DNA of 64,000 nucleotides from Helicostylum pulchrum. Its lineage: Eukaryota > Mucoromycota > Mucoromycetes > Mucorales > Mucoraceae. A program made the translations under genes and the position numbers. Position 1 is the stretch's first letter, and each line of letters opens with the position of its first letter. The notes beneath the pieces are model-generated. The model was not told the DNA's origin and ran no database searches. It saw only the letters and a program-made list of their open reading frames with translations. The DNA is taken from the NCBI GenBank assembly GCA_025677825.1, contig JAIXMO010000063.1, forward strand, positions 95,353-159,352, read 5' to 3'. Of this stretch, positions 15,601 through 55,898 are shown in pieces.

Positions 15601-16805
15601 TCTCTCGTTTGGTTCTTATTTTACGTGCTCTCCATGTCAATACCGATAAGACCAAGATGATCTTGCGTCCTGATAGAAGTACCATTACCGAACCTCATCA
15701 TATCTGGCCAACTCTCTCTGATGAAGAATGGGCCAAGGTTGAAGTTCAATTGAAGGATTTGATTTTAGCTGATTATGGTAAGAAGAACAACGTTAACGTT
15801 GCATCTCTTACGCAATCCGAAATCAGAGATATCATTTTGGGTATGGAAATCCAAGCACCTTCTCTTCAACGTCAACAAATTGCTGAAATTGAAAAGCAGA
15901 CCAAGGAACAATCTCAATTGACTGCTGTTACAACCAAGACTCGTAATATTCATGGTGATGAAATGATCGTTACTACCACTAGTAACTACGAACAAGCTAC
16001 CTTCTCTAGTAAGACTGAATGGCGTATTCGTGCTATCTCTGCTACTAATTTGTATTTGAGAACCAACCATATCTATGTTAACTCGGATGATATTAAGGAA
16101 CATACTTATACTTATGTTATGCCCAAGAACGTATTGAAGCGCTTCATTACCATTTCTGATTTACGTACTCAAATTGCTGGTTTCATGTATGGTGTCAGTC
16201 CTCCTGATGCACCTAACGTCAAAGAAATTCGTTGTGTTGTCATTCCTCCTCAATGGGGTACACATCAAACTGTTCACTTGCCCCACACTCTTCCTGAACA
16301 TGAATACTTGGCCGATTTGGAACCCTTGGGCTGGATCCATACTCAACCTCAAGAATTGATGAATATCTCTCCTCAAGATGTTACTACTCATGCCAAATTA
16401 TTAGTCAACAATAAGAATTGGGATGGTGAAAAGACAGTTACTTTAACTTGTTCTTTCACACCTGGTTCTTGTTCTCTTTCTGCTTACAAGTTATCTCCTG
16501 CTGGTTTCGAATGGGGTAAGACCAACATTGATCCTGGAAATCAACCTCAAGGTTACTTGCCCACTCATGGTGAAAAGGTTCAAATCTTGTTATCTGATCG
16601 TTTCCTCGGTCACTTTATGGTTCCCTCTGAAGTTTGGAATTATAACTTTATGGGTGCTCAATTTAGCGCTAATATGAATTATAGACTTGTTTTGGATGTT
16701 CCCAAGGAGTTCTATCATGAATCTCATCGTGCTGCTCATTTCATGAACTTTAGTAGTGAAACTGAAGCTACTACTGAAGCTGATATTGAAGATAATTTCG
16801 CTTAA
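9664..16805 (+). CDS. PRP8: PRP8, spliceosomal U5 snRNP core protein
   Basis: 2351-aa pre-mRNA splicing factor 8, the scaffold around the spliceosome active site. Exon 1 is 9664-9853 and exon 2 is 9940-16805; the single 86-nt intron splits a Gly codon near residue 64. Length matches human (2335) and yeast (2413). Visible landmarks are the N-terminal [20 protein letters not shown] block, the [12 protein letters not shown] and [20 protein letters not shown] blocks, an RNase H-like region from about residue 1770, and a C-terminal Jab1/MPN domain from about 2100. The C-terminal tail is acidic. The coding sequence is less AT-rich than its surroundings and strongly codon-biased, as expected for an abundant protein. 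No intein interrupts it, although PRP8 is a classic fungal intein host. Converges on the HIU hydrolase gene, 145 bp apart. Confidence 0.99.
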
Positions 16806-22639: not shown

Positions 22640-24161
22640 GTTTCGTTTCGAAAAAATTAGGACCACGGAAAAAAGGGATAATTTACACAACCAGATCTTG
22701 GTTTCCTTATAAATATACGGGATTTTCGGTCAATTATAAAACCGAGACCGTTTTAGAAGAGCCAATCACGGTTCCTCAATAACTGTGTAAAGGTGCCGAA
22801 GTTTAAGGCAGTGCTTTTACTCTTTATTTTGTACCTGTTGGACCCTGCTTTCCATTGTACTTTTTACTTTTATTTCCCAAGTCGTTGTACGTATAAAACA
22901 GGAACCGATGCTCACTTTTCTTACTGTTACCTTATTATTACCTTATTGTTACCTTATTGTACGCTTTTAAGCTTTACCACACTATCTATTAATTAACACT
23001 ATATATAAAAAAGTAAAACTACAAATTTCTATTTACTGTTTTCTTAACAAATGCACATAAGAAACTGGAAATAATTTTATTGAAAATTTATTCGGTGTTT
23101 ATTACGCCGGTGATTGTTGAATATGCCATATTACATAGTTAAGACAATGTTATAAGGTGGGGACAGACTTGTAATAAAACACTTTAGAACATTTGCTTGC
23201 TACTTTTTATCCCACATGGATATGTAATCTATCAAAGTAATCATGTGGGATAGCTATTGCCAAAAGTAATTGTGTCAACTGCCATACCTTCTACAATTAC
23301 TTGTACCTTTACCAACGGATATACATACGCTTAGGGACCATCTAATAATTGTGCTGTTACAGGCCTTAAAGCCTCAGCTTCTCCGTTCCGCGTTGATCAT
23401 TGTAAAGGGCTCGACCGTAAAATAAAGTCAATTGTATTATTTATACATGGCCAAAAAATTTAAGCAGTTGTGTTTATTTAAACTTGAAATAACCCAAGAA
23501 GACCGTTCCTGACCAATATATCCATTATCGTCATGTATACCTCGAGACTTCGCGTGCCAAAAAACGAAATCGTCTACCATAAGAGCTTGTATTTGTCTTG
23601 AAACTCGGATTATATGCCAAGTACCAATAAAGACACGCAGGTAGAAATAAATGCATAGAATGATAGAATACATAATAGATAAAGTTATTACAGATACAAG
23701 AATAAATAGTAGAGTACTTGAGTCACATTTTCGCAATAATTATAAGACCACGTAACGTAACAAGGTCTATTCATAACCAGATGGTGAAAGCCCTATACCT
23801 TTCCCCAAGTCTACCCCTTGACGAATTATAGAACGTCCAGTTTAGACCAATACCCAATAAACTACAAGTCTTTTTCATCAGAAACGCTTTAGAGCCAGTT
23901 ATGGAAAGCAATGTTTTGCTTTTATTCAACTTAATCGCAATCCACCTCTCGACGCAAATTTTGAACTGTAGAACCTCCAAAGCATAAGAAATGTAAAACA
24001 TCGTTAAACCAGAGAGAACACAACAAAGTTACTTAGTAGCCCCATACAAAGGAAAAGTGAGTCTGTACTCATATTGAGATCTGGATTGTACATATGTAAA
24101 GAAAACAGAAAGCTCACTAAGATACCCGAATTTAAAAAATCGCTCACATAAGAAATCACTG
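22640..24161. other. 1.5-kb interval between Kei1 and arm A, no supported gene
   Basis: Contains the Kei1 upstream region and then AT-rich DNA. Minus-strand open frames at 23437-23736 (with a hydrophobic N-terminus) and 23771-24001 exist, but I see no splice partners, homology or matching copy in arm B, so I do not call them genes. Confidence 0.5.
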
Positions 24162-24418
24162 CTAATTTAATTACTTTCCCGAGTCAATTTTCTAAAGATT
24201 CACGGCAGATACACACTCCATTCAAGTCTATATATATATTGTCTTTATATTTTATAAAGCTGGATCTCGCCCTTAAATAAAGCCGCTACAGTATAGATTT
24301 TTCACAATACTTTCTGCTTTTTTTTTACTTAGTTATTCTTTGATTTCACTTTATTTACCTATATTATGTGTAGTTACGCGGGTAAGGTTTATACTCAAGA
24401 GACCTTTTTCGTGTACTC

Positions 24419-24466
24419 TTTGCTGAGCCATTGTACTTTTTAGAAATTGAATATAAGTACTTAAAA
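24419..24466 (+). promoter_or_regulatory. shared promoter module, copy A1
   Basis: TTTGCTGAGC at 24419-24428, then a TATA-like GAATATAAGTAC just before the upstream-ORF ATG (24467). The spacer is longer than in A2/A3 and identical in layout to copy B3. Confidence 0.65.
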
Positions 24467-24887
24467 ATGAGTACCATAACCTTTGTTTTTCTTTTATCTA
24501 ATCTTACACCTACATATACCTGGTTCTATAACACAAAACAATGTCATATGCAGTGGAATATTCCCAGAACTTGACTCAAACGACATAGTTACAATTGCAT
24601 AATTGGAAAAGATTTCTCGGCCAGGATTCTGTATTGCTCTTGGATTCAGTGTGTTTACCAAGAACGAAACAATGATGTGTGGACTCAAGAATATAGACAT
24701 GGCAGATGACTGCTTAAATTATAAAATTAGGGACCCGGGATATTCTGTGAACCGTACACTTATTCTTCCCTGTCGAGTTGTTACGGATTTGGTGGTGGTG
24801 GTGGAGAGTGGAAGTAATTATCAATCGCCTAATTTTCATATAATAATTATTGATGTTTTTATTTATTCCTTTTACTTGAAGCGTTAA
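24467..24887 (+). pseudogene. small Cys-rich family member A1, disabled
   Basis: Mirror partner of B3. The conserved main frame is interrupted by a TAA at 24600-24602, where B3 reads TAC (Tyr) just before the Leu-Glu-Lys-Ile block. Downstream the frame is intact to 24887: SRPGFCI, FTKNETM, CGLKNIDMADDC, a sequon degenerated to VNRT (N-x-T kept but Gly lost), LPC, ESGSNYQSPNF and a C-terminal hydrophobic stretch ending YLKR. No ATG follows the stop in frame before the conserved core, so I score it as a pseudogene. A 34-codon hydrophobic upstream frame begins at 24467. Confidence 0.7.
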
Positions 24888-24988
24888 GTATATCCTAATT
24901 CACCTAAATAAATATTTTTGGGGGGAAGGAAAGGCAATCCCCTCCCCCACTCTCTCTCTCTCTCTCTTCTGTCTTCTTATAAATATTC

Positions 24989-25022
24989 TTTGCTGAGCGG
25001 AAACTGAGTATAAATAATTAAA
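24989..25022 (+). promoter_or_regulatory. shared promoter module, copy A2
   Basis: TTTGCTGAGC, a short spacer, then GAGTATAAATAATTAAA directly before the upstream-ORF ATG at 25023. A strong TATAAATAA box. Confidence 0.75.
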
Positions 25023-25082
25023 ATGTGTATCACGAGCTTTTTCTTGCCTTTCTTCCTCCCTTCACCTGTACTGGTTCTATAA
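25023..25082 (+). CDS. hydrophobic upstream ORF of A2 (19 aa)
   Basis: MCITSFFLPFFLPSPVLVL, stop at 25080-25082, four nt before the main ATG at 25087. Composition resembles a signal-peptide core, but it is in a different frame from the main protein. Confidence 0.45.
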   Translation: MCITSFFLPFFLPSPVLVL

Positions 25083-25086
25083 TATA

Positions 25087-25449
25087 ATGTCTACTCCCAA
25101 AATACTTGATCTAAATGAAATGTACAAATATGTATACCTTGAAAAGATTGCTCGACCTGGATTCTGTCTTGATGGTCCTAGACCGACCGTATTTACCAGG
25201 AACGAAACAATGATTTGTGGACTCAAGAATATAGACATGGCCGAAGACTGCTTAGAGTATGAAAGGTCCCACTTTGGAGACTTTGTTAACGGTACGCTTA
25301 TTCTTCCCTGTGAACATTCTGCCGGGTATAGTCGAATTGTTACGAATTTCGTGCCGGAGGTGGAGAGTGGAAGTAATTATAAATCACCTAATTTTAGTAT
25401 TATACTTATTTCAATGATATTTTTATTTGTTTTTTATTTGAAGCGTTAA
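25087..25449 (+). CDS. small four-Cys membrane-anchored family protein A2
   Basis: 120-aa member of an apparently undescribed family with six copies here. The core is PGFC, VFT(K/R)NETM, ICGLKNIDMAEDCLEY, a FVNGTLILPC block, a variable linker, ESGSNY(K/Q)SPNF and a C-terminal hydrophobic segment (about residues 101-118) ending YLKR. Four cysteines and two N-x-T sequons (KNET, NGT) are conserved, which suggests an oxidised, glycosylated ectodomain with a C-terminal anchor. The predicted protein itself has no N-terminal signal; a hydrophobic upstream ORF sits 4 nt before it in another frame. Intact, single exon. Function unknown. The adjacent secreted deaminase is part of the same duplicated cassette. 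Confidence 0.75.
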   Translation: MSTPKILDLNEMYKYVYLEKIARPGFCLDGPRPTVFTRNETMICGLKNIDMAEDCLEYERSHFGDFVNGTLILPCEHSAGYSRIVTNFVPEVESGSNYKSPNFSIILISMIFLFVFYLKR

Positions 25450-25509
25450 AATATCCTAATTCACCTATAATAAATCCCTCTTCTCTTTTTTTTTCGTGTA
25501 AAAAACTCT

Positions 25510-25544
25510 TTTGCTGAGCAGAAATTGAGTATAAATAATTAAAA
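25510..25544 (+). promoter_or_regulatory. shared promoter module, copy A3
   Basis: TTTGCTGAGC, a 10-nt spacer, then GTATAAATAATTAAAA immediately before the ATG at 25545. Nearly identical to copies A2, B1 and B2. Confidence 0.75.
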
Positions 25545-25592
25545 ATGTGTATTACGAGCTCTTTCTTACATTTCTTCTTCTCTTTAACCTAA
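25545..25592 (+). CDS. hydrophobic upstream ORF of A3 (15 aa)
   Basis: MCITSSFLHFFFSLT, terminating 24 nt before the main ATG. It begins like the other copies but ends early, so the close stop-start spacing is lost here. Confidence 0.4.
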   Translation: MCITSSFLHFFFSLT

Positions 25593-25616
25593 TATACCTG
25601 TATACTGATTCTATAA

Positions 25617-25967
25617 ATGCCTCCTTTCCCAACCCTTGATGTAAATGAAGTAATTCGTCTTCAATACAAGGAAAAGATTGTTCAACCTGGGTTCTGTATT
25701 GGTAATGGAGCGACTGTATTTACCAAGAACGAAACAATGATCTGTGGACTCAGATATATAGACCTGGAAGAAGATTGCTTAGAGTACAAATTTATCAGTC
25801 CTGGATACTCTGTTATCGGTGCATTTATTCTTCCCTGTGAACATATCGTAAGCCAATATCTAATTGTTATGGCGCCACCAGAGAGCGGAAGCAATTATCA
25901 ATCACCTAATTTTAATATATTGTTTATTTCAATGATGCTTTTATTTATTTTTTATTTCAAGCGTTAA
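25617..25967 (+). CDS. small four-Cys membrane-anchored family protein A3
   Basis: 116 aa, intact, mirror partner of B1. It keeps PGFCIGNG, VFTKNETM, ICGLRYIDLEEDCLEY, LPC and ESGSNYQSPNF, then a C-terminal hydrophobic segment ending YFKR. Unlike A2, B1 and B2 the second sequon is lost (VIGAFILPC where the others have VNGTLILPC), so only one glycosylation site is predicted. The N-terminal 25 residues (FPTLDVNEVIRLQYKEKI) are hydrophilic. Same promoter module and upstream-ORF design as the other copies. Function unknown. Confidence 0.75.
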   Translation: MPPFPTLDVNEVIRLQYKEKIVQPGFCIGNGATVFTKNETMICGLRYIDLEEDCLEYKFISPGYSVIGAFILPCEHIVSQYLIVMAPPESGSNYQSPNFNILFISMMLLFIFYFKR

Positions 25968-26107
25968 AGGAAAAATATATTCCAATTCAACCTTTTAATA
26001 AAATTTTCTAGGGAGGAAAAATAACCCTCTCACCTTTATTTCTGTCTTTATTTTTGTTTTTCTTTATTTCTGTTTCTCTGTATTTCTGTCTTTATTTTTT
26101 GTTTCCT

Positions 26108-26109
<2 letters not shown>

Positions 26110-26156
<47 letters not shown>
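26110..26156. repeat. 47-nt uninterrupted poly(T) tract
   Basis: Longest homopolymer in the window, inside arm A between A3 and the deaminase. The matching position in arm B has only short A runs, so it expanded after duplication or is an assembly/sequencing length artefact. Confidence 0.85.
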
Positions 26157-26160
<4 letters not shown>

Positions 26161-26381
26161 GGCAAGGTAAATGGATTCATTCACCTGGTGCAAACCCCGA
26201 ACCATTGGTATTACAATTTGAACTTCTCAGAAGAAGAAGAGAAAAAGTGATACTGTTTTAACTGGACCTCAAACACCGTAACACGAATTTTCTGAGGTTC
26301 AAATTACAGAAAAAAAGTTTATTCTCGATCTAAAAAGTCGTTTTTCTCTTTATCTTTTTTCTACTTTTTTCTCAACCAAAA

Positions 26382-27248
26382 ATGAAGTTATTCTCCGCTG
26401 CTATTTTATGTCTTGCATATTTTAATTCTGCATCTGCTACAGATTGTCAAGGACTTGAAAGTACAAAGGCCGTAGATGAATGCTATATGAAAATCGCATT
26501 AGACTATGCTTTAACTCATAATCCAGGGTTTCCTTTTGGCGCATTAATTGTCGATCATACCAGAAATGATATATCTTGTTACGGCGCTAATTCGAACAAA
26601 AAAAACAAGTTATTGCACGGTGAAACTGCTGCCTTCTGGAAGTAAGTAATTACAAAAGAAAGAAAGGGAAAGATACTAATGAGTTATTAGCTGTACCGAA
26701 TTGTATCCTTCACCTACTCAAGACGATATGTTTAATCCTGGTTTAGATTGGTCTCATCAAACCCTTTATACCACAGGAGAGCCAGTAAGTTTTTTTAAAA
26801 AAAAATACAGAGTATACATGTACTAACATGTATGTAGTGTCCCATGTGTGCTTCTCAAAGTATTTATCGAGGTGTACATCGAGTTGTTTGGGGTACATCG
26901 ATTCCAGATATTAATAAAAGTGGACGCCAACAATTGATGATTAGCATGTAAGTGTGTCTATTTGATTTACTTTTGTAAAAAAAAATATTTATTCTTTTTG
27001 AAAAAAAAAGGCACGATGTAGTAGCTTCTGCTAAGATTGGTGCCAACCTTCCCAACACTGAAGTGCCTATTTTAGAAGGAGGTGTACTGAAAGATGAATG
27101 TGATCATGCATTCTGGTGTGCATTTTCCGTATTTCGCGATGAAGAATATTATGCGGCTATGAAAAAGGATGGTCTTGAAGCCTATATTACAGATCGTAAT
27201 ACTCGATTCCCGTGCAAAGAAGGACCAGAAGGTCATGAGGAACTCTAA
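26382..27248 (+). CDS. secreted zinc-dependent deaminase (guanine/cytidine deaminase fold)
   Basis: 233-aa member of the CMP/dCMP-type zinc deaminase superfamily, closest in layout to guanine and tRNA-adenosine deaminase-like enzymes. Exons are 26382-26641, 26691-26784, 26838-26947 and 27011-27248. The zinc/proton-shuttle motif H79-G-E81 and the P118-C119-P-M-C122 motif are both present, as are FPFGALIVD and LYTTGEPCPMCA. Unusually, it starts with a clear signal peptide (MKLFSAAILCLAYFNSASA), so it should be secreted; family members are normally cytosolic or nuclear. Its promoter and first exon belong to arm A, and a wrecked copy lies in arm B, so it is the fourth member of the duplicated cassette. 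The substrate could be an extracellular purine or cytosine compound; this is inference. Confidence 0.85.
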
Positions 27249-27747
27249 AAAAAATTGTGTTGTTTATGGTGAACAGCTACTCCATATAAAATCACGCTGT
27301 ATATATAAAAAATCCCCCGTGGCTTACAGCTACTGCCACATTTGTAAAAAACGCTGTATATATAAAACCAATAAAACTCTTTTTTTTTTCAATTAAAACT
27401 GTTATCTTGAAATGTCATTTTTATTAATCCATGTGATGTTTTTAAAACCGTAATCAAGTGTGAGAATATAGAGGGTATTTTCAAGATAGTAGTAATAATA
27501 ATTACCTATATTGTGTAACGTATGTTTATCTGTGATATTCTCCCCCGCCCATTGTCTATCATGCATAAATTGGTTTATCGCTGTTATTATCAACACAATG
27601 AAAAAATACCCCGTTTTACGGATAAGATGTTTTTATCTTTTTTTATCCAGATAACAACTTTTTTTTTTTTCCCATAACTATTTTAACTATAAAAAGGGGA
27701 TCAAGTTATTAAATCCCAAAAAACAATTATACAAAAAAAAAAAAAGT
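27249..27747. other. non-coding interval with a repeated CGCTGTATATATAAAA element
   Basis: No gene. The 16-nt word CGCTGTATATATAAAA occurs twice, near 27294 and 27352, downstream of the deaminase. A TATA-like region precedes the oxygenase start. Confidence 0.5.
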
Positions 27748-28834
27748 ATGTCTACTATTACTTGTGCTGCTGCAGCGTCTGCTAGTATTGCTAGTACTCA
27801 ACGAGACTTTATCCGTGTTGATTTATCCAACTATGAAACTCGACAAGAAGAAATTATCAAGACCATAATGGAAGCTTCCACCGGCCAAGGTTTCTTTTAC
27901 GGTAAAAACAAAATTCTTTTTTTTTTTCTTTTAAAAAAAATAATATTAACTGATTTCTCTCTCCAAAAAAGTTGTTAATCATGGTATTGAAATCCAAGAC
28001 ATCCGTAGTATGTTTGAATCTAGCCGTGACTTCTTTGCACTCGACGACGCTATCAAAAGCAAGTACCCAATTGACGTGACCCGAAACGCAGGCTGGGAGA
28101 AGCTCTCGCAAATCCGCCCTTCAACCGGTGTGGCCGATCTCAAAGAGTCTATGCAACTTGGGTTCCACAACCACGAAGACCTCTGGCCCACGCTTACTGA
28201 CGCTCCCACGTTCCGCCCCACCGCCGAGAACTTCATGCACCAATGCAACGACGTCTCCACCAAGCTTCTTACCTGCTTAGCCCTTGGCCTCGGCTTCCCC
28301 TCTGACTTTTTCACCAAATGCCACGACGTAACACAACCCGACTGCCTCAACACGTTGCGATGCCTTCACTACCACGATATCACGGGCAAAGTTTTCCCGC
28401 CCGAGTACTGGCGCGCAGGAGCGCACACTGATTTCGACACGCTGACGCTGCTGTTCCAGCGCCGCCCAGGCGAGAGCGGCCTTGAGGTGTGCCCCGGTCG
28501 TGAAGCGTCTACAGAGTTTGGTCACGGCGATGCGTGGACAGCAGTGTCTCCAGAGGAAGGAGACATTGTGTGTAATATTGGAGATATGATTATGCGGTGG
28601 TCCGACGATGCGTTAAAGAGTAATTTTCATCGTGTTCGGGCTCCGGGTGTGGGCGAGTATCAAGGACCTCGCTACTCAATTGCTTATTTCAACCAGGCGA
28701 ATAAGTCGGCAGTCATTCAAGGTCGCACGCGGTACCCTGAACCGATTACTGCAGGGGAGTTTATAAAGTTGGCCATGGAAAGAAACTACCGTGCACTTCA
28801 GGAGTTGAAGGGTGATCAGCCTACAGCTGCTTAA
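27748..28834 (+). CDS. 2-oxoglutarate/Fe(II) oxygenase, isopenicillin-N-synthase-like
   Basis: 338-aa non-haem iron dioxygenase. Exon 1 is 27748-27901 and exon 2 is 27972-28834. The N-terminal DIOX_N-type region is recognisable (FIRVDLSNYETRQEEI, GFFYVVNHGI). The iron ligands are H203-x-D205 (AGAHTDFDTLTLL) and H271 (SNFHRV), and the 2-oxoglutarate-binding R285-x-S is in RYSIAYFN. Substrate unknown; homologous fungal enzymes oxidise small molecules, including gibberellin-like and xanthine-like compounds. Exon 2 is strikingly GC-rich (many GCC, CCC and CTC codons, at a guess about 55 percent GC over 28000-28550) against a very AT-rich background, which suggests horizontal acquisition or strong codon selection. 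It sits between the two inverted arms beside the deaminase. Confidence 0.92.
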
Positions 28835-29589
28835 TATTTTCCTTTTCTCTCTGCAGAGAATAAGGAGTTACTGTATTATAACATGGCTTATTCTTCTTCC
28901 TTTCCCCCGTATTTCACTTTTTGCAGAGAGAAATTTATTTTTGCGGTGCAGCCAAATCCGCGTAAAAAACCTGTGTAAATAAATAATTCTTTTTATAAAT
29001 AAGTTGGCAATGAGTGCACGGTCTATATTAGAAGTAATTAAAAAAAAGTCTTTGATAATCACATTCTTGACGTATGTATAAAACCCACATAAACGTGTTT
29101 TGACGTGTCACATTTATTTTTAAATCAAGTACTACCACTAATTATGATTCATATCACTTTTGTAAGCTTCAACAACTTTTTAAATAATACCTGCCACTGT
29201 ATAAATACACATATTTGCTGAAATTAAATCAAAGTGTGAACCAGTTTCTATATTTATACAGTAGTTTTTCGTCCTGCTCAATTTGGATGAATTATACTGT
29301 AACGCAGAATCCATATAGTTCCTTTTTTTTTATAAATTATATGCATAATATACCAGCATCAAAAAAATAAAGGATTTTGAAACATGTATTTGCAAAGAGA
29401 AACTGGTGCTTATGAATTCTGTCAGTTCTTCTTTCTCTCTGCATGATTTTTTTAAACAAAAGTCGAAACGAACGCTTCTTGTGACGTCATGACAAGTTGT
29501 TACTCCCAAGTTTTTTTTTTTGTTCTTTTTTTTTTCTTTCTCTTGCCATTAAACCAACCCGTTTATTTTTTTATATAAACAAACAAAAA
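28835..29589. other. non-coding interval with GCAGAGAGAAA-type motifs
   Basis: No gene. A short word recurs in both orientations: TTCTCTCTGCAGAGAA at 28845-28860 (containing the palindrome TCTCTGCAGAGA), TTTTGCAGAGAGAAAT near 28919, TTTGCAAAGAGAAA near 29388 and TTTCTCTCTGCA near 29431. Possible regulatory sites for the flanking oxygenase or SWC4 gene. Confidence 0.45.
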
Positions 29590-31396
29590 ATGAGTGGATC
29601 TGATATTCGCGACATTTTACAGATTGGTTCTCCTAGTGAATCAAGTCCAAAGAGATCGAAACCATCGGTTGAAAAAAGACCAGGTAAATTTTTTTTTTCA
29701 ACCAAACTAAAGAAGAGTATTGATTATTTTGTAAATAGATGGTATTAGTAGAGAGTTGTATAGTTTAATTGGTGGAGCACCACCAGTTGCGTTTGTTAAA
29801 CCTACGTTTAAAGCTAAATTCAAAACGAAAAAGAAGGCTACACCGTGGGTTCTTACACCCTTTTTGAATCCTGCTCGAACCGATGGATTAGTTTTACAAC
29901 ATTGGCTTAAAGCTGAAGAAGCCGAGGACCAAGGTAATATACACACACATATAGGATAAAACAATTTGTACTGATGTAGGGTGTTTTTTTGATAGAGTAT
30001 CCGTTTGCCAAATTTAATAAAGTAATTGATATCATTGAATATACCGAAGACGATTATGAAAAATATTTAACAGGTAAATAAAAATTCACAAAGGTAAAAA
30101 AAAGAAATATGCGGAAGAAGAGGGATTAAAAAGAAAGATACTAAGCATGAAAATAGACACAGACTGGAGTAAAGAAGAAACGGATTACTTGTTTGAACTG
30201 TGTCGACAATACGATCTAAGATTTCCAGTAATTGAAGACAGATATGCATTTGAAAACAAGACGAGAACGATGGAAGATTTAAAGGATAGATATTACTCAG
30301 TGTACCGAAAGTTAATCATACAAGGCAGAGGACCTATTTCAAACGACTATATACCTGACAGACAAGCCTTGGCGCAACAGTACGGTTATGACAAGAATAA
30401 AGAAGTCGAAAGAAAGAACGCATTAATCATGTTGATGAATCGTACAAAGGAACAAGTCGAAGAAGAAGAAGCGTTATTTGTTGAAGCTAAGCGTATCGAA
30501 TTAAACGAATCGAGATTGGCAAGAGAAAGAGAAAGTTTATTGAATTCACTTCAATTGGAGCAAATTCAACAAATTCCTTCTACACCTAGTACACCACTTC
30601 ACGGTAATTCACCTACAAGTGCTGGTGGAGTTTTATCTTCTCCCGGAGGTATCGGAATAACGGGTGGTACAGCAGGAGGAACTCATTCTTCTGAATTAAA
30701 GGTAAAAAAAAAAAAAAATATCACGCTTTTCTTTGTCGAATGATTTTTTTATTAAAACATAATAATTATGCAGAAAAAGAAAAAGTCAATACATGATGAT
30801 AAAAAGGGACGTAAGCTATCTAGTGCTTCAAGTAGTATGTTGGAAGGTAAGCCAAAAAAAAAAATTAATTTAATCTTGAGTAACTATAACGTTTTAACGT
30901 TTTATTTAATCAAGTAGAAAGCCATGAACATAAAAAAGAGAAGCTTACACCAGGAGTTTATATTCGAAGTCAGAAACTGCCAATTGTTAAACCTACTATG
31001 CAAGCCAAAGTACTTAAAGTATTGGAGGAAATGGGAATTGGTAAGAGAGAAAGATAAATACAATTAAAAAAAAAATCAAATTACTAAGTTTATATTGATT
31101 TTAGGTCCTAGACCCATTATGCCAACAAATCACGTCTGCCAAAAGTTTGAATTTTTACAAAATTCGATTCTAAACATGTTTGAACTCAAGAAAATTGTTG
31201 ATAAAACAGAAGCTGAACACAAGGTTAAAATACAAAAAGGGCGAGATGGCACACCCACTGGAAGGGTAAATTTTTTTTTTTTTGCCTTTACTGTTTATTT
31301 TAAAAATGCTTACTGAAATACCTTTCTTTTTAATAGAAACGATCTTCTAGTAATGCCGGTTCAACTAATGGAAATAGAGAGAAACGAAGGAAGTAA
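29590..31396 (+). CDS. SWC4: SWC4/DMAP1, subunit of NuA4 and SWR1 chromatin complexes
   Basis: 442-aa homolog of yeast Swc4/Eaf2 and human DMAP1, shared by the NuA4 acetyltransferase and the SWR1 H2A.Z-exchange complex. Eight exons: 29590-29683, 29739-29933, 29996-30073, 30157-30701, 30774-30846, 30918-31040, 31105-31265 and 31337-31396. N-terminal DIRDILQI. A conserved linker PWVLTPFLNPARTDGLVLQHW follows, then EYPFAKFNKVID and the SANT/Myb domain at about residues 123-175 (DTDWSKEETDYLFELCRQYDLRF, DRYYSVYRKL). A Glu-rich helix, a Ser/Gly/Pro-rich insert and a C-terminal DMAP1 block (KLPIVKPTMQAKV, GPRPIMPTNHVCQKF) come after. Exon junctions all keep frame. Confidence 0.95.
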
Positions 31397-31549
31397 GAGA
31401 GAGAGAGACTACTTTATCTTTTTGTACCACCCAAAACAAATTTCGTACTTTATAAAAAAAAAAATCTATAATTTTTTTTTTACTTTTTCTTCTTCTTTAA
31501 TTTTTTTTTCTCTTTTTTTTTTGTTTTTTTTTTACTACTACTTGTACGT

Positions 31550-33103
31550 ATGTCCTTGAAAGAATTACCTTTTCCAAAGGCTTTAAATATAATAAGGCCT
31601 TCTTCACCTTTAATGCAACAGCAACAAGATTCTTCACAGTCTTCTTCAACAGCTTCTTCTTCATCAATTTCAACATTTTCATCGTTTTCCAATAATAATA
31701 ACAGTGGTGGTCGAGTACCACCCACCATCATCAATCCTTCTAATTTTGCTTACTTTCAAAATAATTGGGCTTCGTTAAAATCAGCCAATGTTGTTGGTGT
31801 AAATCCTCATCGCTTTTTACAAAGACCAAGAAGTAATTCCAGTTTATCAAAATCAACCTTTTTCTCTACTTTATCTATTTCTTCTCATGGTGGTAGTGAA
31901 GAAGATGATGACGATGAAGATGAATATGATCTTGACAGTATTGATGGTTTAACTGATCAAGACGATAATGATGATAGTATAGATGACTCTGATGGAGATG
32001 ACTCTGATGGAGATGAATACGATGATATTGATGTCGATGATAATATAGGAATACCTACAAAAATTGTCGCTAAAATTAAACATGGAACTATTATGAATGG
32101 TAAAGGAGAATTTGTTAATAAAGGAAGTGCAGAAGATCAAAATTCTTGGCTAGACGAAGCAAGGGCAAATCGTAAAGTAAGAAAAAAAAACGAATACTAC
32201 TACCAACTACTATTACTATTACTTATGTAAACACAAATTAGATTGCCGATCTCGAGATAGAAAAAGCATCTTTGTTAGTATTAAACACAACTCTGGAAGC
32301 CAAGCTGCGACAACAAACATCACAGATTGCCGAGCTGCAGAAACGATTACAAATGTAAATAGATTATTTATTAATAAATATCATGTATGTGTATGTACTT
32401 AACATAATAATTGTTATATAGGAATGAAGGACCCCTGACACCCGTATCAGACAAACACGTGGATGAGGTTAATATTATTTTTATTTATTATGTATCTACT
32501 TACTAACAACTATTCATTGTTCTCTTCGTGTAGTCTTTACTATTTGATGATGATGAAACTACAATTGTATCCTCTGCAGAAGACGATGAAGACGATGAAG
32601 ATATCGAAACTGATCAAGTATTTCAACGTATAAAATCAATGCTGGAAGGTTTAATCTTACAAGCTGAAGTTGCATTACTTCAAAAATCAAAGCAATCTGG
32701 AAAAGTATTGCAGCAAGATCAATACTTTTTCAACAGAGAAGAAGAAAAAAAGAGAAATGTCGAAGGTGTGTGTGTGTGTTTTTTTGAGCGAATAAATATA
32801 TTTATATACTAACATAACTTACACGTAGATACATTACATAAATTAACAGTGAGAACTTCATCTCCAATAACATCACCTTCATCCACAAGTACAAGAAAAC
32901 CTCCAACAAGAAGAGTATCAGATACATCTAAACCATCCAGTGCAAAAATGTCGAGAAATCTATCCCGTAAATCATCGCCTCCAGTTATGGTGTCTACTTC
33001 TCCACGACCTTTTAGTCCTCCACCCACACAACGATCTGCTTCTCCACGATATTCATCACTATTACGAAAGGCTCAAGATCTCGACAAACCAAAGTGGGTT
33101 TAA
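31550..33103 (+). CDS. acidic coiled-coil protein of unknown function
   Basis: 430 aa, not recognised. Exons are 31550-32176, 32242-32354, 32422-32467, 32534-32765 and 32829-33103. The N-terminus LKELPFPKALNIIRP is followed by Gln and Ser runs, a very acidic Asp-rich tract (about residues 105-168) and a conserved-looking block IVAKIKHGTIMNGKGEFVNKG with a following W. Then comes a short coiled coil (IADLEIEKASLLVLNTTLEAKL, IAELQKRLQ), a helical stretch (VFQRIKSMLEGLILQAEVALLQ) and a Ser/Pro/Arg-rich disordered tail. Intron 3 has a weak donor (GTTAAT). Starts 153 bp after SWC4. Probably a cytoskeletal or polarity scaffold, but that is guesswork from composition. Confidence 0.7.
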
Positions 33104-35636
33104 ATTATTATCCCCAACCCCCCTTCTCCTCTATGAATTATGATTTGATACCTTTTTTACTGTTTTTATTATTTTCCCTTTTTTATACACACAAGCTATG
33201 TCAAAAAAAAACCCTTCCATCCTAGTATACCCCCACTCTTCTTCCTCCCTCCACACACACAAACAAAAATTTTCTATAAAAGAAAAATATTTTATATGGC
33301 TCTCACTTTCGTTTCATTCTTTCTTTCATTTTTTTTTTACGCATATTTTCATTTTTAAACAAAAAATACATAATAGATTACCACCTAAACACCCTCTACC
33401 CCCTTCTCTTGTTCCATATTATGTATATTTTTCCTCCCCCCCCCCCCCACACACACAACAACAACAAAAGCTTACTTTTTCAGTATTAGATAAGCTAATA
33501 AAACGACGCAAATCCCCTTTTTCTCTTCTTCCTAAAGAATGATTCCAATGATAAAAAATGTTTAAGAAATGACAGGAACGTCTTTTTTTGTCTCGGAGTA
33601 AAAAGTTGTATTGGCATTTTAGGTTAAAATGATGGATGATATTTAAATAAGTCAAGACACATGTGACCTTCGTGGGTAGTGTTTTTCAATACAACTCCTG
33701 ATTTTCCGTAGCCTGATTCTTTTAAAAGGTGGGGTATTACGTCTTTTTTTTTTCTGATAGATTTTGTCGCGCCATAAAATATTAGGTTTTTTTGATGCTT
33801 CCGTTTCCATTATTACATCACTTTCATACTACTTTTTTTTTAAAAAAAAAAAGTTCTGTCAGTGTAACAAAAAAGGGAAAAAAGATCTTCTTGCATTATC
33901 AAAACAACTAAAAAAAACGTAGCCTCAAAAAGAGTCATCTGGTAATAAAGATCACTTTTTTTTTCGCACTCAATTAATTTAGTGAAAAGCGGAACAAGGA
34001 CAACTTATCCGGTTTTTTTTTTTTTTTCAATACAAACTATCTAACTTGTCATACAATTTCTCCAAATTGATAGTAACATTAAAAAAAAAGCATATTTAAC
34101 TTTTAGGTTAGAGCAAAAAAGTAACAAAAAAAACACGCTGTAATAATCACGCAGACATATCTTTTGAATGTTATTGAATTACCTTTTTTTATAAATCAAA
34201 AAAAGAGGAAAAAACTTTATTTTTACTCTGACTTCCAACTTTATGTTTGGTATAACCATAAACAAAATCACGAATTTCTAAATGTCAGGTGAGGGTGCGT
34301 ACACACACCCGTTAAACTTTTTTCCTTTACAAACTGCATACCCGCAAACACATTTATGCTGTGGGAGTTTTTTTTTTTGGAGCACTGCGAAAAAAAAACA
34401 GGTCGGCTTTGATAATTTCACAAAGGAAAGGCTATCTAATTCTTATACTACATCAATCTTTGTACAACAATACTGCAAAAAAGATCTTCCTTGCTACTTT
34501 TGATGTACTTTTTTTTTTTATCAGCGAAAAAGCCGTAATCTCTGTAGCTTTATAAATCGGTTTCTTTTTTCTAATAGTCGATTTAATACGAATGATCAGA
34601 TTTGATAGCTACCAAGAAAAATGAGACGCCGTTTAACCCTTCTTATCTTGATATAGCACTGTACGCATGAGTTACACTTGTCAAACTTATTCGGCAACGG
34701 TTATGTTGTACATTCTTATACGCAGATAAAAAAAAACAAATGTTAACTGCCATGAAAAGTTAACTGCTACTTTTTCTGCATCCAGATGATTCTCCTTTTT
34801 CGTTATTATTACTACAGCAGCGGCCACATTTTAGGATAGGCTCTATTTAACAGTGTATTACCTACTTGACAATGTCGTTCATAAAAAAAAAAAACGATAG
34901 TAATCAAAATGATAGAAAATAAGTCTTTAGAAATCAGCTAGGAAAAAAGCAACTAAATACAGATAGTTTGCCAAGTGTCGAAAGATTGAAAAAGGGGATA
35001 CATTATAAACCAAACATAGTGAACACAATGGTACTTTTTAGCCCTGTAAATTATAGCAAGTAGTTTTAAAATGTATCTTTATGTGGTATTCTAATAAATA
35101 GCTCTGCATTTTATGAATTGACAGCAATAAAATGTCTAGTAAAATTTAAAATTATTCAAAGGTTTCAGCTCTTGCAGAAAAAAAAAATACAAGGTAACTT
35201 CAGTGAGTTCAAGAACTGCTTAAACTGTAATCATACATCATTGTCTGTCCATAATTCTCTTTAAAACGCGTGTCTGTAAGTGAATACTTGGGTATTACCT
35301 CTAAAAATGGTCTGCTCTTCGCCACCTAGATTACAACGTTCGTTCAATTGGGGCATTCGCTTTGTACTTCTTTTCCCGTTATCGTCATGAAAACTTCTTA
35401 AAGAGCACACATTAGCAATTCCGAACTACTTTGTTTGCGTGTGTGTGTATATTGTACCCCTTCGGAAAGGATACACTTGTAAAATAAAATGATAAATAAT
35501 TATAGCTTTTTTTAGGACCTGTTTTTTGATATATGTATTTTTTTAACTGTTGATAAAAAAAAGTTGTTGATAAAAAGTCATCAGCTCGTTTCTTTTCTCT
35601 TTTTTCTTTCTTCAGCTGCTCTCTTTCCGCTATAAA
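33104..35636. other. 2.5-kb gene-free interval
   Basis: Nothing I can support as a gene on either strand. Frequent poly-T/A tracts, a C tract at 33437-33449 followed by (CA)n, and no recognisable repeat copy of other parts of the window. Confidence 0.5.
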
Positions 35637-36469
35637 ATGCGTAAACGTAGACAAAAAGAATGTCGCAAAGAATAGGAAGAACGGTATAGTCTTCCTATAC
35701 CCAAAGCTAAAAAAAAAGAGCGCACTCTGCTGCCTTCCAATCCAATATCGATGAGTTCCGTGTTACTACCACAGAAGCTATTAAGTCTACTGCATAATAT
35801 AATAATGACGACTTTAAAAAAGAATCCTAAAAGTGACACCAAAGATCTTAAAAATCCGAAGAATAACGTAAAAAGATTCCTCGTTATACGTATGATGCTC
35901 TTTATAATCTGTATGGCTCCTACTGGACACACAATTCACTTCAACGTCTTAAACTGAACGGTCTTACAATGTACACAAACTACGTTAAAGAGAGCTTCGA
36001 TAATATATTAAAAGAAGTAAAAGAAACATTAGCCAAAGAAATAGTAAAACCTGAAAAGGCAGATTCTAGCAAGTATTCTTCAGTTGATGATGCTGTTGAT
36101 AATGCTGTTGATGATGAGAAAATAAAATTGATTGTAGTACCTCTAGGCCAAGTTCTCAGACAAGATTTACCTTTAGAAGCAAGACGTACAATAATAGATA
36201 AATTTAACAATACCATTCAACAATATTCCGATTTTGCTTCTCTCTTTGCTCTTCATGCTCAGTTAAATATACTTAAATTTGTAATATCTGATGATATTAC
36301 AGCTGAAACTACCAGAGCACAAATGTATAGTATTATTCCACATGAATTCCGAGCTTCTTCCGCCTCGATTGAATTCCCAGCGCCCCCAACTAATCAAGCA
36401 AATGATGACGTTAAAAGGAAATCCGATTACAAGACTCTGTTTATAAACGTGAAAAATCCCGAGTTATGA
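35637..36469 (+). pseudogene. decayed ORF truncated at the arm B breakpoint
   Basis: Fragments of one former protein. A frame from the ATG at 35637 hits TAG after 12 codons (35673-35675). The longest surviving piece reads YDALYNLYGSYWTHNSLQ from about 35891, then KLNGLTMYTNYVKESFDNI on to 36469, but upstream the frame is broken near 35876-35885 in an A-rich stretch. The surviving part is a hydrophilic, helical protein with SVDDAVDNAVDDEKIKLIVVPLG. The frame's last codons lie antisense to the deaminase scrap of arm B, so its true C-terminus was replaced when arm B joined here. Probably a mobile-element or orphan gene relic; I recognise no domain. Confidence 0.55.
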
Positions 36470-36530
36470 ATTAAAGCGTAATCTAATGCAATTTTTATAC
36501 GGCATTCATCTACGGCCTTTGTACTTTCAT
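36458..36530 (-). pseudogene. remnant of deaminase exon 1
   Basis: On the minus strand the sequence jumps from the CAACCAAAA...ATG context directly to GAAAGTACAAAGGCCG, then TAGATGAATGC and ATTGCATTAGATTACGCTTT. These correspond to codons about 26-48 of the secreted deaminase gene. The signal peptide codons are deleted, the frame is broken and everything past codon about 50 is gone. It proves that the deaminase was part of the duplicated unit. Confidence 0.85.
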
Positions 36531-36845
36531 TTTATTTTATTTTGGTTGAAAAAGTATAACTTTTGGATCGAAAATATACTTTTAGTAATTTGAACATCAG
36601 AACTTTTGTGTTGCCCTGTTTGAGGTTACGAATTTTAAAACAGTATCACTTTTTTTCTTCTGAGAAGTTAAATTGTAGTACCAATGGTTAGGGGTTTGCA
36701 CCAGCTGAATAAATCCGTTTACTATGCCTTGTAAAAAAAAAACAAAAAATAAGGACGCAAAAAATAAAAAAAGACAGAAATAAAGAGAAAGATGAGGGTT
36801 GTTTTTCCTCCCAAGAAAATTTTATTAAAGGTTGAATTGAATTCT

Positions 36846-37202
36846 TTAACGCTTCAAGTAAAAAATAAATAAAAGCATCATTGAAATAAACAATACATTA
36901 AAATTAGGTGATTGATAATTACTTCCACTCTCTAATGGTGGCCCCATAACAATTTGATCTAAATTTATGATACTTTTACAGGGAAGAATTAATGTACCGT
37001 TAACAAAGTATCCAGGATTGACAAATTCGTACTCTAAGCAATCTTCTTCCATGCCTATATTTTTGAGTCCACAGATCATTGTTTCGTTCTTGGTAAATAC
37101 AATATTCGGTCCTTTACCAATACAGAACCCAGGCTGAACAACCTTTTCCGAGTATTGGAGCTGAAATATTTCGTTTGCATCAATTGTCTGGTAAGAAGTC
37201 AT
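36846..37202 (-). CDS. small four-Cys membrane-anchored family protein B1
   Basis: 118 aa, intact, mirror partner of A3. Begins MTSYQTIDANEIFQLQYSEKV. Conserved core is PGFCIGKG, VFTKNETM, ICGLKNIGMEEDCLEY, FVNGTLILPC and ESGSNYQSPNF, then a hydrophobic C-terminal segment ending YLKR. Both sequons and all four cysteines are present. The main ATG (37200-37202) overlaps the stop of the 21-codon upstream ORF by one base (TAATG on the minus strand). Single exon, promoter module at 37268-37302. Function unknown. Confidence 0.78.
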   Translation of the reverse strand: MTSYQTIDANEIFQLQYSEKVVQPGFCIGKGPNIVFTKNETMICGLKNIGMEEDCLEYEFVNPGYFVNGTLILPCKSIINLDQIVMGPPLESGSNYQSPNFNVLFISMMLLFIFYLKR

Positions 37203-37267
37203 TATATAAACAGTACAGGTATATAGGTAAAAGAGAAGAAAGGTAAGAAATGGCTTGTGATACTCAT
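37202..37267 (-). CDS. hydrophobic upstream ORF of B1, stop overlaps main start
   Basis: 21 codons (MSITSHFLPFFSFTYIPVLF plus Ile) from the ATG at 37267. Its TAA and the B1 ATG share one A, giving TAATG, an arrangement known to allow termination-reinitiation in other systems. Sequence resembles a signal-peptide or membrane helix. Confidence 0.5.
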   Translation of the reverse strand: MSITSHFLPFFSFTYIPVLFI

Positions 37268-37302
37268 CTTCAATTATTTATACTCAATTTCTGCTCAGCA
37301 AA
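37268..37302 (-). promoter_or_regulatory. shared promoter module, copy B1
   Basis: Minus strand: TTTGCTGAGC, GAAATTGAG spacer, TATAAATAATT, then the upstream-ORF ATG. Confidence 0.75.
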
Positions 37303-37379
37303 AGAGTTTACACGAAAAGAAAAAAGGGGGATTGCCTTCCCCAAAAAAAATATATTTATTATAGGTGAATTAGGATATT

Positions 37380-37724
37380 TTAACGCTTCAAGTAAAAAAT
37401 AAATAAAAACATCATTGAAATAAGTATAATACTAAAATTAGGTGATTGATAATTGCTTCCACTCTGTGGCTCCATAACTATTCGTCTTTGTATTAAGTTA
37501 CGTTTACAGGGAAGAATAAGTGTACCGTTAACAAAGTATCCAGGGCCGAGTAAATCATACTCGAAGCAATCATCTTTCATGTGTATATTTTTGAGTCCAC
37601 AAATCATTGTTTCATTCTTGGTAAATACAGTTGGTCTACTATCAATACAGAACCCGGGTTCAACAATCTTTTCCAAGTATCCAAGTTTTAATATTTCGTT
37701 TGCATCAATTCTCTGGTAAGACAT
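37380..37724 (-). CDS. small four-Cys membrane-anchored family protein B2
   Basis: 114 aa, intact, mirror partner of A2 by position. Starts MSYQRIDANEILKLGYLEKI. Core is PGFCIDS, VFTKNETM, ICGLKNIHMKDDCFEY, FVNGTLILPC and QSGSNYQSPNF, then a C-terminal hydrophobic segment ending YLKR. Four cysteines and both sequons are present. Its start again overlaps the upstream-ORF stop as TAATG (37722-37726). The linker after the LPC cysteine is shorter than in A2. Function unknown. Confidence 0.78.
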   Translation of the reverse strand: MSYQRIDANEILKLGYLEKIVEPGFCIDSRPTVFTKNETMICGLKNIHMKDDCFEYDLLGPGYFVNGTLILPCKRNLIQRRIVMEPQSGSNYQSPNFSIILISMMFLFIFYLKR

Positions 37725-37789
37725 TATAGAAACAGTACAAGTATATAGGTAAAAGAGAAGAAAGGTAAGAAAGAGCTTGTGATACTCAT
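37724..37789 (-). CDS. hydrophobic upstream ORF of B2, stop overlaps main start
   Basis: 21 codons (MSITSSFLPFFSFTYILVLF plus Leu), exactly the same length as in B1, with the same one-base stop-start overlap (TAATG). Confidence 0.5.
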   Translation of the reverse strand: MSITSSFLPFFSFTYILVLFL

Positions 37790-37824
37790 TTTTAATTATT
37801 TATACTCAATTTCTGCTCAGCAAA
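37790..37824 (-). promoter_or_regulatory. shared promoter module, copy B2
   Basis: Minus strand: TTTGCTGAGC, a 10-nt spacer, GTATAAATAATTAAAA, then ATG at 37789. Confidence 0.75.
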
Positions 37825-37908
37825 AAAGAGTACTAAGTTACAAGAAGTGGATTGTCTTTCCCCCCCCCCCCCAAAAAAATATTTATATTATAAGTGAATT
37901 AGGATATT

Positions 37909-38306
37909 TTAACGCTTCAAATAAAAAATAAAATTAGGCGATTGATAATCACTTCCACTTTCCACACGAAATTCGTAACAACTCGATCATACGAGCCAGA
38001 GTATTTACAGGGAAGAATAAGCGTATGGTTAACAAAGTATCCAGGGTCCCCAATTTCATAGTTGCTTTAGCCATGTCTATATTCTTAAGTATATAAATCA
38101 TTGTTTCGTTCTTGGTAAACACGCTGAATCCAAGACCAATACAGAATCCCGACCGAGAAATCTTTTCCAAGTATGTAATCGTAACTATGCCGTTTGAGTC
38201 AAGTTCTGGGTATATTCCACTACATACGACATTGTTTTGTGTTATAGAACCAGGTATATATAGGTGTAAGATTAGATAAAAGTAAAACAAAGTTTATGGT
38301 ACTCAT
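37909..38306 (-). pseudogene. small four-Cys family member B3, disabled
   Basis: Mirror partner of A1 but broken by different lesions. The frame reads TYLEKISRSGFCIGLGFSVF and TKNETM, then has Ile-Tyr-Ile where others have an ICGLK cysteine. It shifts frame just after ATGGCTAAAGC (near 38070) because several bases of the DDCLEY region are lost. At the end, SDYQSPNF jumps straight to FYLKR: about 33 nt coding most of the C-terminal hydrophobic segment are deleted. The upstream hydrophobic ORF starts at 38306. Clearly non-functional. Confidence 0.75.
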
Positions 38307-38354
38307 TTTTAAGTACTTATATTCAATTTCTAAAAATTACAATGGCTCAGCAAA
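38307..38354 (-). promoter_or_regulatory. shared promoter module, copy B3
   Basis: Minus strand: TTTGCTGAGC followed by the long spacer also found in A1 and a GAATATAAGTAC TATA-like box before ATG 38306. Confidence 0.6.
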
Positions 38355-38510
38355 GAGTGCATAAAAAAAAAAAAAGTCTCTTGAGCATTGATCATATAAA
38401 CCTTACCTGAGTACGCATAATATTAAAAAGTGTTACAGATGTAACTAGATAAATAAATTGGAATTAAAGAATAGGTAGGGAAAAAACCAGAAGGTATTGC
38501 GAAAACTTTA

Positions 38511-38797
38511 TACTGTAGCGACTCTATCTAAGAGTGGAATCCAATCTCATAAAGACAGTATACTTATACTTGAATGGAGTGTAACTATATCAGCAGTGAA
38601 TCTTTAGGAAAAGTAATTAATTATAGAGGATTGGTAAGCGATGGGATGACTTCACGAACTATTTAAAGCGATATACAATCCATCATTTTTCATCATTAAA
38701 ACGCGTGTTTTTTAGGGATTGCTTAGACATTATCTCATTGTTATAATGATTCACTGCTCGATATAAGGCCGCCCTTAAATAGAGCCGTTACTATATG
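38511..38797. mobile_element. MITE-like element with imperfect terminal inverted repeats
   Basis: The left end TACTGTAGCGACTCTATCTA (38512 onward) matches the reverse complement of the right end (TAGTAACGGCTCTATTTAAG read inward from about 38795) at about 20 of 27 positions. Internal sub-repeats GCAGTGAATC and GATTCACTGC are also inverted. Size is about 285 bp with no coding frame. The same end sequence, CCCTTAAATA(A/G)AGCC, recurs at 24269 (arm A edge) and 63388, so it is a family. It straddles the outer edge of arm B. Confidence 0.6.
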
Positions 38798-55395: not shown

Positions 55396-55898
55396 CTATA
55401 TAAGGAAATAAGTAATATTATCAGGAATAGCGACACTAACGTCTTCATAGCCATATGTCACGGCATAACGTTGGTATTCCATGATTATTTGAGACCATTC
55501 CTTTCTATAGGTCACTACGTCCTCTCTTTCGTGATCGTCGAAATAAACTACCTTACCTTTTAAATATGAGAGAAGTTATTAACTAAGTATTATCTAATTT
55601 TTTTTTTTTTTCATTCTGGCGTAAATGACTTACCCACACGTTTAAAGTGGAAACTCCATTGTATAAACTTATTGCTAATGCATTTGATAGACAAAGGATT
55701 GGTAATGGCCCCGCTATCATCAACTTCAACATTCAACGTATGGTTTTCAATAGCTGCAGGAAGGATCACAGTTTGAAGTTCGTTCTGTAAAGTAGGAATG
55801 TTTCTTTGGAACTTTGGTACTAATCGAAACCATTCAAGTACTTTTTCCTTGATATCGTTGTACGGCGAGGTACTTGGGCCGTTCATAACCAATTCCAT
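55396..55898 (-). pseudogene. N-terminal fragment of a DDE-type transposase-like protein
   Basis: Two exons (55634-55898 and 55396-55556) joined by a clean GTAAGT...AAAAG intron give 141 codons, then a stop. The junction creates FKRVGKVVYFDDHEREDVV, which matches the Y-x-D-G-H-E-R-x-D-V-V block common in fungal DDE-superfamily transposon ORFs, followed by TYRKEWSQIIMEYQR. The catalytic DDE core that should follow is absent, so the protein is truncated. Upstream residues (PLSIKCISNKFIQWSFHF) fit the helix-turn-helix-like region before that block. Part of its 5' region is duplicated at 56101-56168. Confidence 0.55.

Follow-up and report, generated by a model that had tools for sequence, protein, structure and literature searches.

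An inverted segmental duplication of a small-gene array, probably associated with mobile DNA, in Helicostylum pulchrum

We analysed a stretch of 64,000 nt from Helicostylum pulchrum (Mucorales; C129:95353-159352), referred to here as the window, and found that it contains two antiparallel, homologous copies of a block of small genes. The two copies, arm A (24188-26530, plus strand) and arm B (36448-38611, minus strand), include non-coding sequence, are unique in the genome and constitute an inverted segmental duplication. Our data make it probable that this is an old, mobile-element-associated duplication of a tandem array of narrow taxonomic range, which evolves by decay and gene conversion and in which a fragment of a deaminase gene is passive. 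We found no literature on this locus, PMC11385716 included, in a search whose coverage left out most subscription journals.

Results

The two arms

Self-BLAST of the window returned a long antiparallel match between 24188-26335 and 36561-38611 (2249 columns, 74% identity with gaps counted, E 0) and a further one within part of deaminase exon 1 (26456-26521 against 36464-36529; 66 columns, 89%). A first-pass annotation of the window had proposed an inverted block duplication with this order of parts, and the proposal holds, since the antiparallel diagonal is not confined to the genes but also crosses spacers and promoters. When the arms were aligned globally with each other, 1710 of the 2061 ungapped columns were identical (83%; alignment of 2446 columns). 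From the outer edge inward, identity is 153/200 at the element edge and upstream, 128/135 (94.8%) in the promoter patch of the outermost small gene (A1 against B3), 254/296 in the A1 body against B3, 133/180 in the A1-A2 spacer, 269/342 between A2 and B2, 125/160 in the A2-A3 spacer, 300/348 between A3 and B1, 70/81 in the sequence 3' of A3, 149/171 in the deaminase upstream region and 64/76 in the deaminase exon 1 remnant; thus, non-coding stretches match as well as coding ones in several places. The longest identical stretch, 43 bases, lies between A1 and B3.

We searched the whole genome with the arm and found that its body matches at these two places alone (3 of the 41 listed matches lie inside the window). 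The matches outside the window cover approximately the first 90 bases of arm A, which are the repeat edge, and nothing further; they fall at no fewer than 38 places, a lower bound because 40 of the 143 candidates were scored. The 17% divergence of the arms argues for a duplication that is real in the organism, and against a duplicate made during assembly.

The small genes

Of the three small genes in each arm, two are open and the outer one is broken. In arm A (plus strand) these are A1 (24541-24887; broken), A2 (25087-25449; 120 amino acids) and A3 (25617-25967; 116 amino acids), and in arm B (minus strand) they are B1 (36846-37202; 118 amino acids), B2 (37380-37724; 114 amino acids) and B3 (37916-38233; broken). 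Of the three small paralogs per arm described in the first-pass annotation, two are therefore open, and the outer ones are not intact. Neither A1 nor B3 has a single open frame: the frame of the start codon switches to another before the body. This break is common to both genes, in addition to an in-frame stop of its own in A1 (one TAA) and deletions of its own in B3. A related protein from another contig, P0005, is open across the region of the break and similar to A1 and B3 there, which points to a shared break older than the duplication. P0005 is encoded together with P0003 on one 8126-base contig, while P0006, from a contig of 944 bases, is almost equal to the A1 body.

The four open genes encode proteins of 114-120 amino acids with four conserved cysteines and a C-terminal hydrophobic segment. 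The four cysteines are kept in all seven full-length members aligned (A2, A3, B1, B2, P0003, P0004 and P0005). Maximal hydropathy over 17 residues is 1.98-2.37 in the C-terminal part and at most 0.94 near the N-terminus in all four open proteins, and on this basis we predict that the small proteins carry a C-terminal membrane anchor. An N-glycosylation-type motif is present in each of the four, and a second in three of them; such motifs would be sensible only with an outward-facing domain, a putative topology. We recognised no signal peptide. The possibility of a hidden signal-peptide exon, connected through an intron of 27-31 bases, was considered by eye and rejected: such an intron is too short, and impossible in A2 or A3. 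Neither A2, A3, B1 and B2 nor P0004 and P0005 had a convincing Pfam match (for the first four, the best value was 0.062, from phospholamban matching the hydrophobic tail), and no solved structure similar to A3 was found up to E 1.

We questioned how widely the family is distributed. In this genome all six of its matches lie inside the window. A word-based protein search, which unannotated small genes escape, gave six matches among 1932 candidates, namely two of the window's own, one from Thamnidium and three from further contigs; in viral contigs, 45 stretches matched the family pattern and none was confirmed. Thamnidium elegans and H. pulchrum both belong to the Mucoraceae. The Thamnidium small protein, a putative ortholog, is 58-62% identical to A2, A3, B1 and B2; as a yardstick, SWC4 of Thamnidium and of this genome are 96% identical (the two Thamnidium proteins come from different assemblies). 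The small proteins are best read as a taxonomically restricted, fast-evolving family.

A deposited gene model, EDC94DRAFT_664371 (P0001, 208 amino acids; 25087-25967), links a tail-less A2 with A3 by means of a predicted intron. Both A2 and A3 form a complete frame by themselves, so that this fusion is probably an error of prediction. In all six units, an ATG shortly after a TATA-like motif opens a short hydrophobic frame (24466-24540, 25023-25086 and 25545-25616, and the arm B counterparts), and in P0003 the upstream ATG is in frame with the small gene. A promoter block with TGCTGAGC and TATAAATA is common to the units upstream of the open small genes (24981-25016 in arm A).

Selection on the open frames

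By the NG86 method, synonymous divergence (dS) between A2 and B2 is 0.337 and nonsynonymous divergence (dN) 0.236, giving an omega (dN/dS) of 0.70 (bootstrap 0.37-1.41); for A3 and B1 the values are 0.169, 0.148 and 0.88 (bootstrap 0.45-2.05). Before the last 30 codons dN/dS is approximately 0.76 for A2/B2 and 1.26 for A3/B1, and in the last 30 codons approximately 0.42 and 0.13, on 6 and 5 changes, respectively. All four gaps within the A2/B2 and A3/B1 coding windows are multiples of three, compared to 8 of 26 outside them (P 0.018; the windows start 3 bases inside the start codon, so that gaps at the A2 start are counted outside) and to two of four in A1/B3. Together, the open small frames are likely to be coding.

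Probable exchange among units

A tree of the six units joins A1 with B3 (100/100), A3 with B1 (97.9/100) and these two pairs with B2 (99.3/100), with A2 outside. The layout of mirror pairs suggested in the first-pass annotation (A1/B3, A2/B2 and A3/B1) is thus present on the DNA, and the tree recovers its first and last pair while A2 and B2 do not group. Similarity among the units is mosaic. At the 5' end B1 and B2 agree in 129 of 139 columns, against 100/125 for A2/B2 (P 0.003) and 98/129 for A3/B1 (P 0.0001), whereas at the 3' end A2 and B2 are most alike and A3 and B1 are likewise similar. Sites that pair A2 with B2 and A3 with B1 (n = 18) lie 2 to the left and 16 to the right of column 230, while those that pair B1 with B2 and A2 with A3 (n = 13) lie 10 to the left and 3 to the right; the third pairing has three sites. 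This switch in site pattern along the units is significant by the Mann-Whitney test (P 0.00096) and by Fisher's test with a boundary picked after inspection (P 0.00045). In addition, identity in the A1 promoter patch (24405-24540, plus strand) is higher than in either spacer (P 3.7e-7 and 3.9e-5) and, at a weaker level of significance, than in the deaminase upstream region (P 0.03). From the mosaic similarity we infer gene conversion, and our data suggest sequence exchange within the array and perhaps between the arms.

The deaminase

Only arm A contains an intact deaminase gene, as had been proposed from the sequence. The gene (26382-27250, plus strand; 233 amino acids) has exons at 26382-26641, 26691-26784, 26838-26947 and 27011-27250, with splice sites placed by eye, and its spliced product has an intact frame, an N-terminal hydrophobic stretch and HGE and PCPMC motifs, which we take to be the HxE and PCxxC zinc motifs of PF00383. 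Its upstream region (26155-26340, plus strand) is also present in arm B, where 149 of 171 columns are identical. What follows in arm B is a fragment of exon 1 (36448-36529, minus strand) that lacks the start and the signal peptide; of the promoter and first exon ascribed to arm B, the upstream region is there and the whole exon is not. The genome contains this one gene and the arm B remnant. Taken by itself, exon 1 of the arm A gene reaches 23 bits, short of the 25-bit cut-off; relatives of the deaminase carry PF00383. We counted by hand 23 named Mucorales species among the 44 relatives listed at E <=1e-20, of which the best is ATC70_002305 of Mucor velutinosus (84% identity over 98%). A Thamnidium deaminase is not among the relatives listed, and neither is the window's own, so this absence says little. 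By our count 20 species are named both among the deaminase relatives and among those of SWC4, and the lengths of their longest contigs agree in one, Mucor hiemalis (2802658); with a single contig, the longest, listed per cluster and many fragmented assemblies, this speaks neither for nor against a conserved neighbourhood.

Adjacency in this genome is the sole tie that we found between the enzyme and the small proteins. The intact arm A deaminase looks like an enzyme that works alone, a bystander to the small genes, and the best explanation of the arm B fragment is that it was carried along and is dead. The deaminase HPULCUR_002574 of the deposited H. pulchrum KT1b is 69% identical to that of arm A, and this genome contains no second gene; the discrepancy may reflect either the loss of a paralogue or different species under one name.

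Mobile DNA at the joints

The outer edge of each arm is formed by the remnant of a dispersed element bearing terminal inverted repeats (TIRs). In arm A the remnant (24089-24296) has its inner TIR near 24296, and 24089-24165 and 24165-24254 correspond to the two ends of genome copies of approximately 1.7 kb (L003, L004 and L008), joined at 24165, which indicates that the interior of the element is missing. Both TIRs are recognisable in the arm B remnant (38509-38796), in which these copies are again matched, by 38549-38643, 38648-38727 and 38767-38796, but with gaps that differ from those of arm A. The motif near 24296, 38509 and 38796 is similar to that at the genome copies, which like arm B have TIRs at both ends, and TA precedes several TIRs. 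The edge had been annotated as a miniature inverted-repeat transposable element; it is indeed a TIR element, but part of a dispersed one that we assume to be Tc1/mariner-like from its CAGT termini. In both arms the homology extends beyond the inner TIR toward the core, which suggests that the element stood beside the array before the duplication.

Two further pieces of mobile DNA lie next to arm B. A fragment of the edge element (34924-35312), matching L003-L008, has at least 35 genome matches of approximately 340-400 bases. It is followed by a second dispersed element in truncated form (35309-36443, plus strand), which is 88% identical to copies on contigs C152 and C46, with partial matches on C106 and C24, and which ends approximately 5 bases from the deaminase remnant. 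Elsewhere this second element extends over at least 3.3 kb, given that two copies, L027 and L028, continue together for approximately that length; two open frames of L027 had no Pfam match. One of the two joints is thus adjacent to a mobile element that has been truncated, and the other falls within a dispersed one, which makes mobile DNA the probable source of the breakpoints.

Core genes and other features of the window

The core contains the oxygenase and SWC4, as first annotated. The 2OG-Fe(II) oxygenase gene (27748-28834, plus strand) matches PF03171 over 28010-28831 (1.5e-15), with a first exon placed by eye. The SWC4 gene (29590-31393, plus strand; 442 amino acids) is spliced as in EDC94DRAFT_625306, to which it is 100% identical over 442 amino acids. 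The third core gene (31550-33101, plus strand; open frame 31472-32230), previously described as a coiled-coil gene, has no Pfam match. Outside the duplicated region, adjoining open frames at 56333-58292 contain NDC10_II (1.4e-20) and GCR1_C (4.2e-18), a pairing that we presume to be that of Crypton-like tyrosine-recombinase elements, and a pair of 71-bp direct repeats lies just upstream, at 55886 and 56099. At 9894-16805, an open frame of 2303 codons contains all main PRP8 domains and is apparently intron-free there. No tRNA was found in the window.

Discussion

We propose that a block comprising the element edge, three tandem small genes, the deaminase upstream region and part of deaminase exon 1 was segmentally duplicated, and that the copy would have been inserted in inverted orientation on the far side of the core of oxygenase, SWC4 and third gene. 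Mobile DNA probably supplied the breakpoints. The outer small gene would have broken, probably before the duplication, while four genes stayed open, and the array may have been kept since by birth-and-death, its units exchanging sequence through gene conversion. Several points weigh against parts of this account. No target-site duplications or reads link the joints to a specific mobile-element event, and A1 and B3 could owe their shared frame break to conversion that postdates the duplication. The tree leaves A2 and B2 unjoined, and it was after inspection that we picked both column 230 as the boundary and the patch shared by A1 and B3. The omega values of A2/B2 and A3/B1 are inseparable from 1 (pooled counts, P 0.26 against neutrality), the constraint on the C-terminal tail rests on 6 and 5 changes, and an AlphaFold model from an eight-row alignment was uninformative (mean pLDDT 44.3, pTM 0.25).

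Omega values that do not differ from 1, two broken units out of six, and the lack of a known domain or solved relative would also fit open frames that are non-functional relics, open by chance in a decaying block. We consider this unlikely, given that four of the six units are open at 114-120 codons with all four of their gaps in frame, that the cysteines persist in every member aligned, that the few changes in the C-terminal tail are biased toward silent ones, and that open relatives occur in other contigs. A functional unit of small genes and deaminase held together by selection, as the first-pass annotation had suggested, would explain why in both arms the block is kept as far as deaminase exon 1, with two small genes open in each. 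It is very unlikely: the arm B deaminase is a fragment, a third of the small genes is broken, and the distributions differ, with the deaminase named in 23 Mucorales species and the small family in one species besides H. pulchrum, although the last of these is weak evidence.

The high identity of the A1/B3 patch bears on two further explanations. Taken with the inverted layout, the 94.8% patch and the 43-base identity suggest past exchange, and one could suppose that the arms recombine now and that the core is inverted or deleted as a polymorphic switch. At 83% identity and with many gaps, crossing over between the arms is unlikely by the known mismatch limits, and the outer and inner joints are distinct in both arms; such a switch is very improbable. 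Alternatively, the patch may be conserved because it encodes a regulatory RNA or a short peptide, and not through conversion. Its identity relative to the spacers and the upstream ATG with a hydrophobic short frame in all six units would agree with this, but across the aligned units the upstream frame does not keep register with the gene and Rfam has no match in 20001-42000, and we consider an encoded product rather improbable. Finally, the array might be a diversity generator of clade-specific, cysteine-containing, membrane-anchored surface proteins, with outward domains nearly free to change, an anchor that is kept and opposed arms that shuffle 5' and 3' halves by conversion, perhaps in recognition among strains or against other microbes. 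This is a speculative idea that we hold to be very unlikely.

The novelty here lies in the small-protein family and in a hint that its units exchange sequence, while the rest is mostly ordinary genome evolution. The locus records an undescribed small-protein family of narrow known range and offers a datable case of a Mucorales array that doubled beside mobile DNA, with decay and sequence exchange among its units. Should the proteins prove to be expressed and displayed, it would become a testable case of diversification through conversion between inverted arms.

Compared to the secreted cytidine/nucleoside deaminases of the Mucorales (PF00383), arm A encodes a protein 84% identical to that of M. 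velutinosus while arm B has the exon 1 fragment only. Inverted segmental duplications whose joints carry dispersed repeats are a general class, and this locus shares with them an antiparallel block that includes spacers, a unique core and mobile DNA at or beside the joints; it differs in that it is old and diverged (83%), with a mechanism that we can only infer. Orphan tandem gene arrays under birth-and-death evolution are likewise a general class. Like them, the array described here is a single-locus family in this genome, with six units, two of them broken, and mosaic similarity, but unlike them it has been doubled and inverted around unrelated genes.

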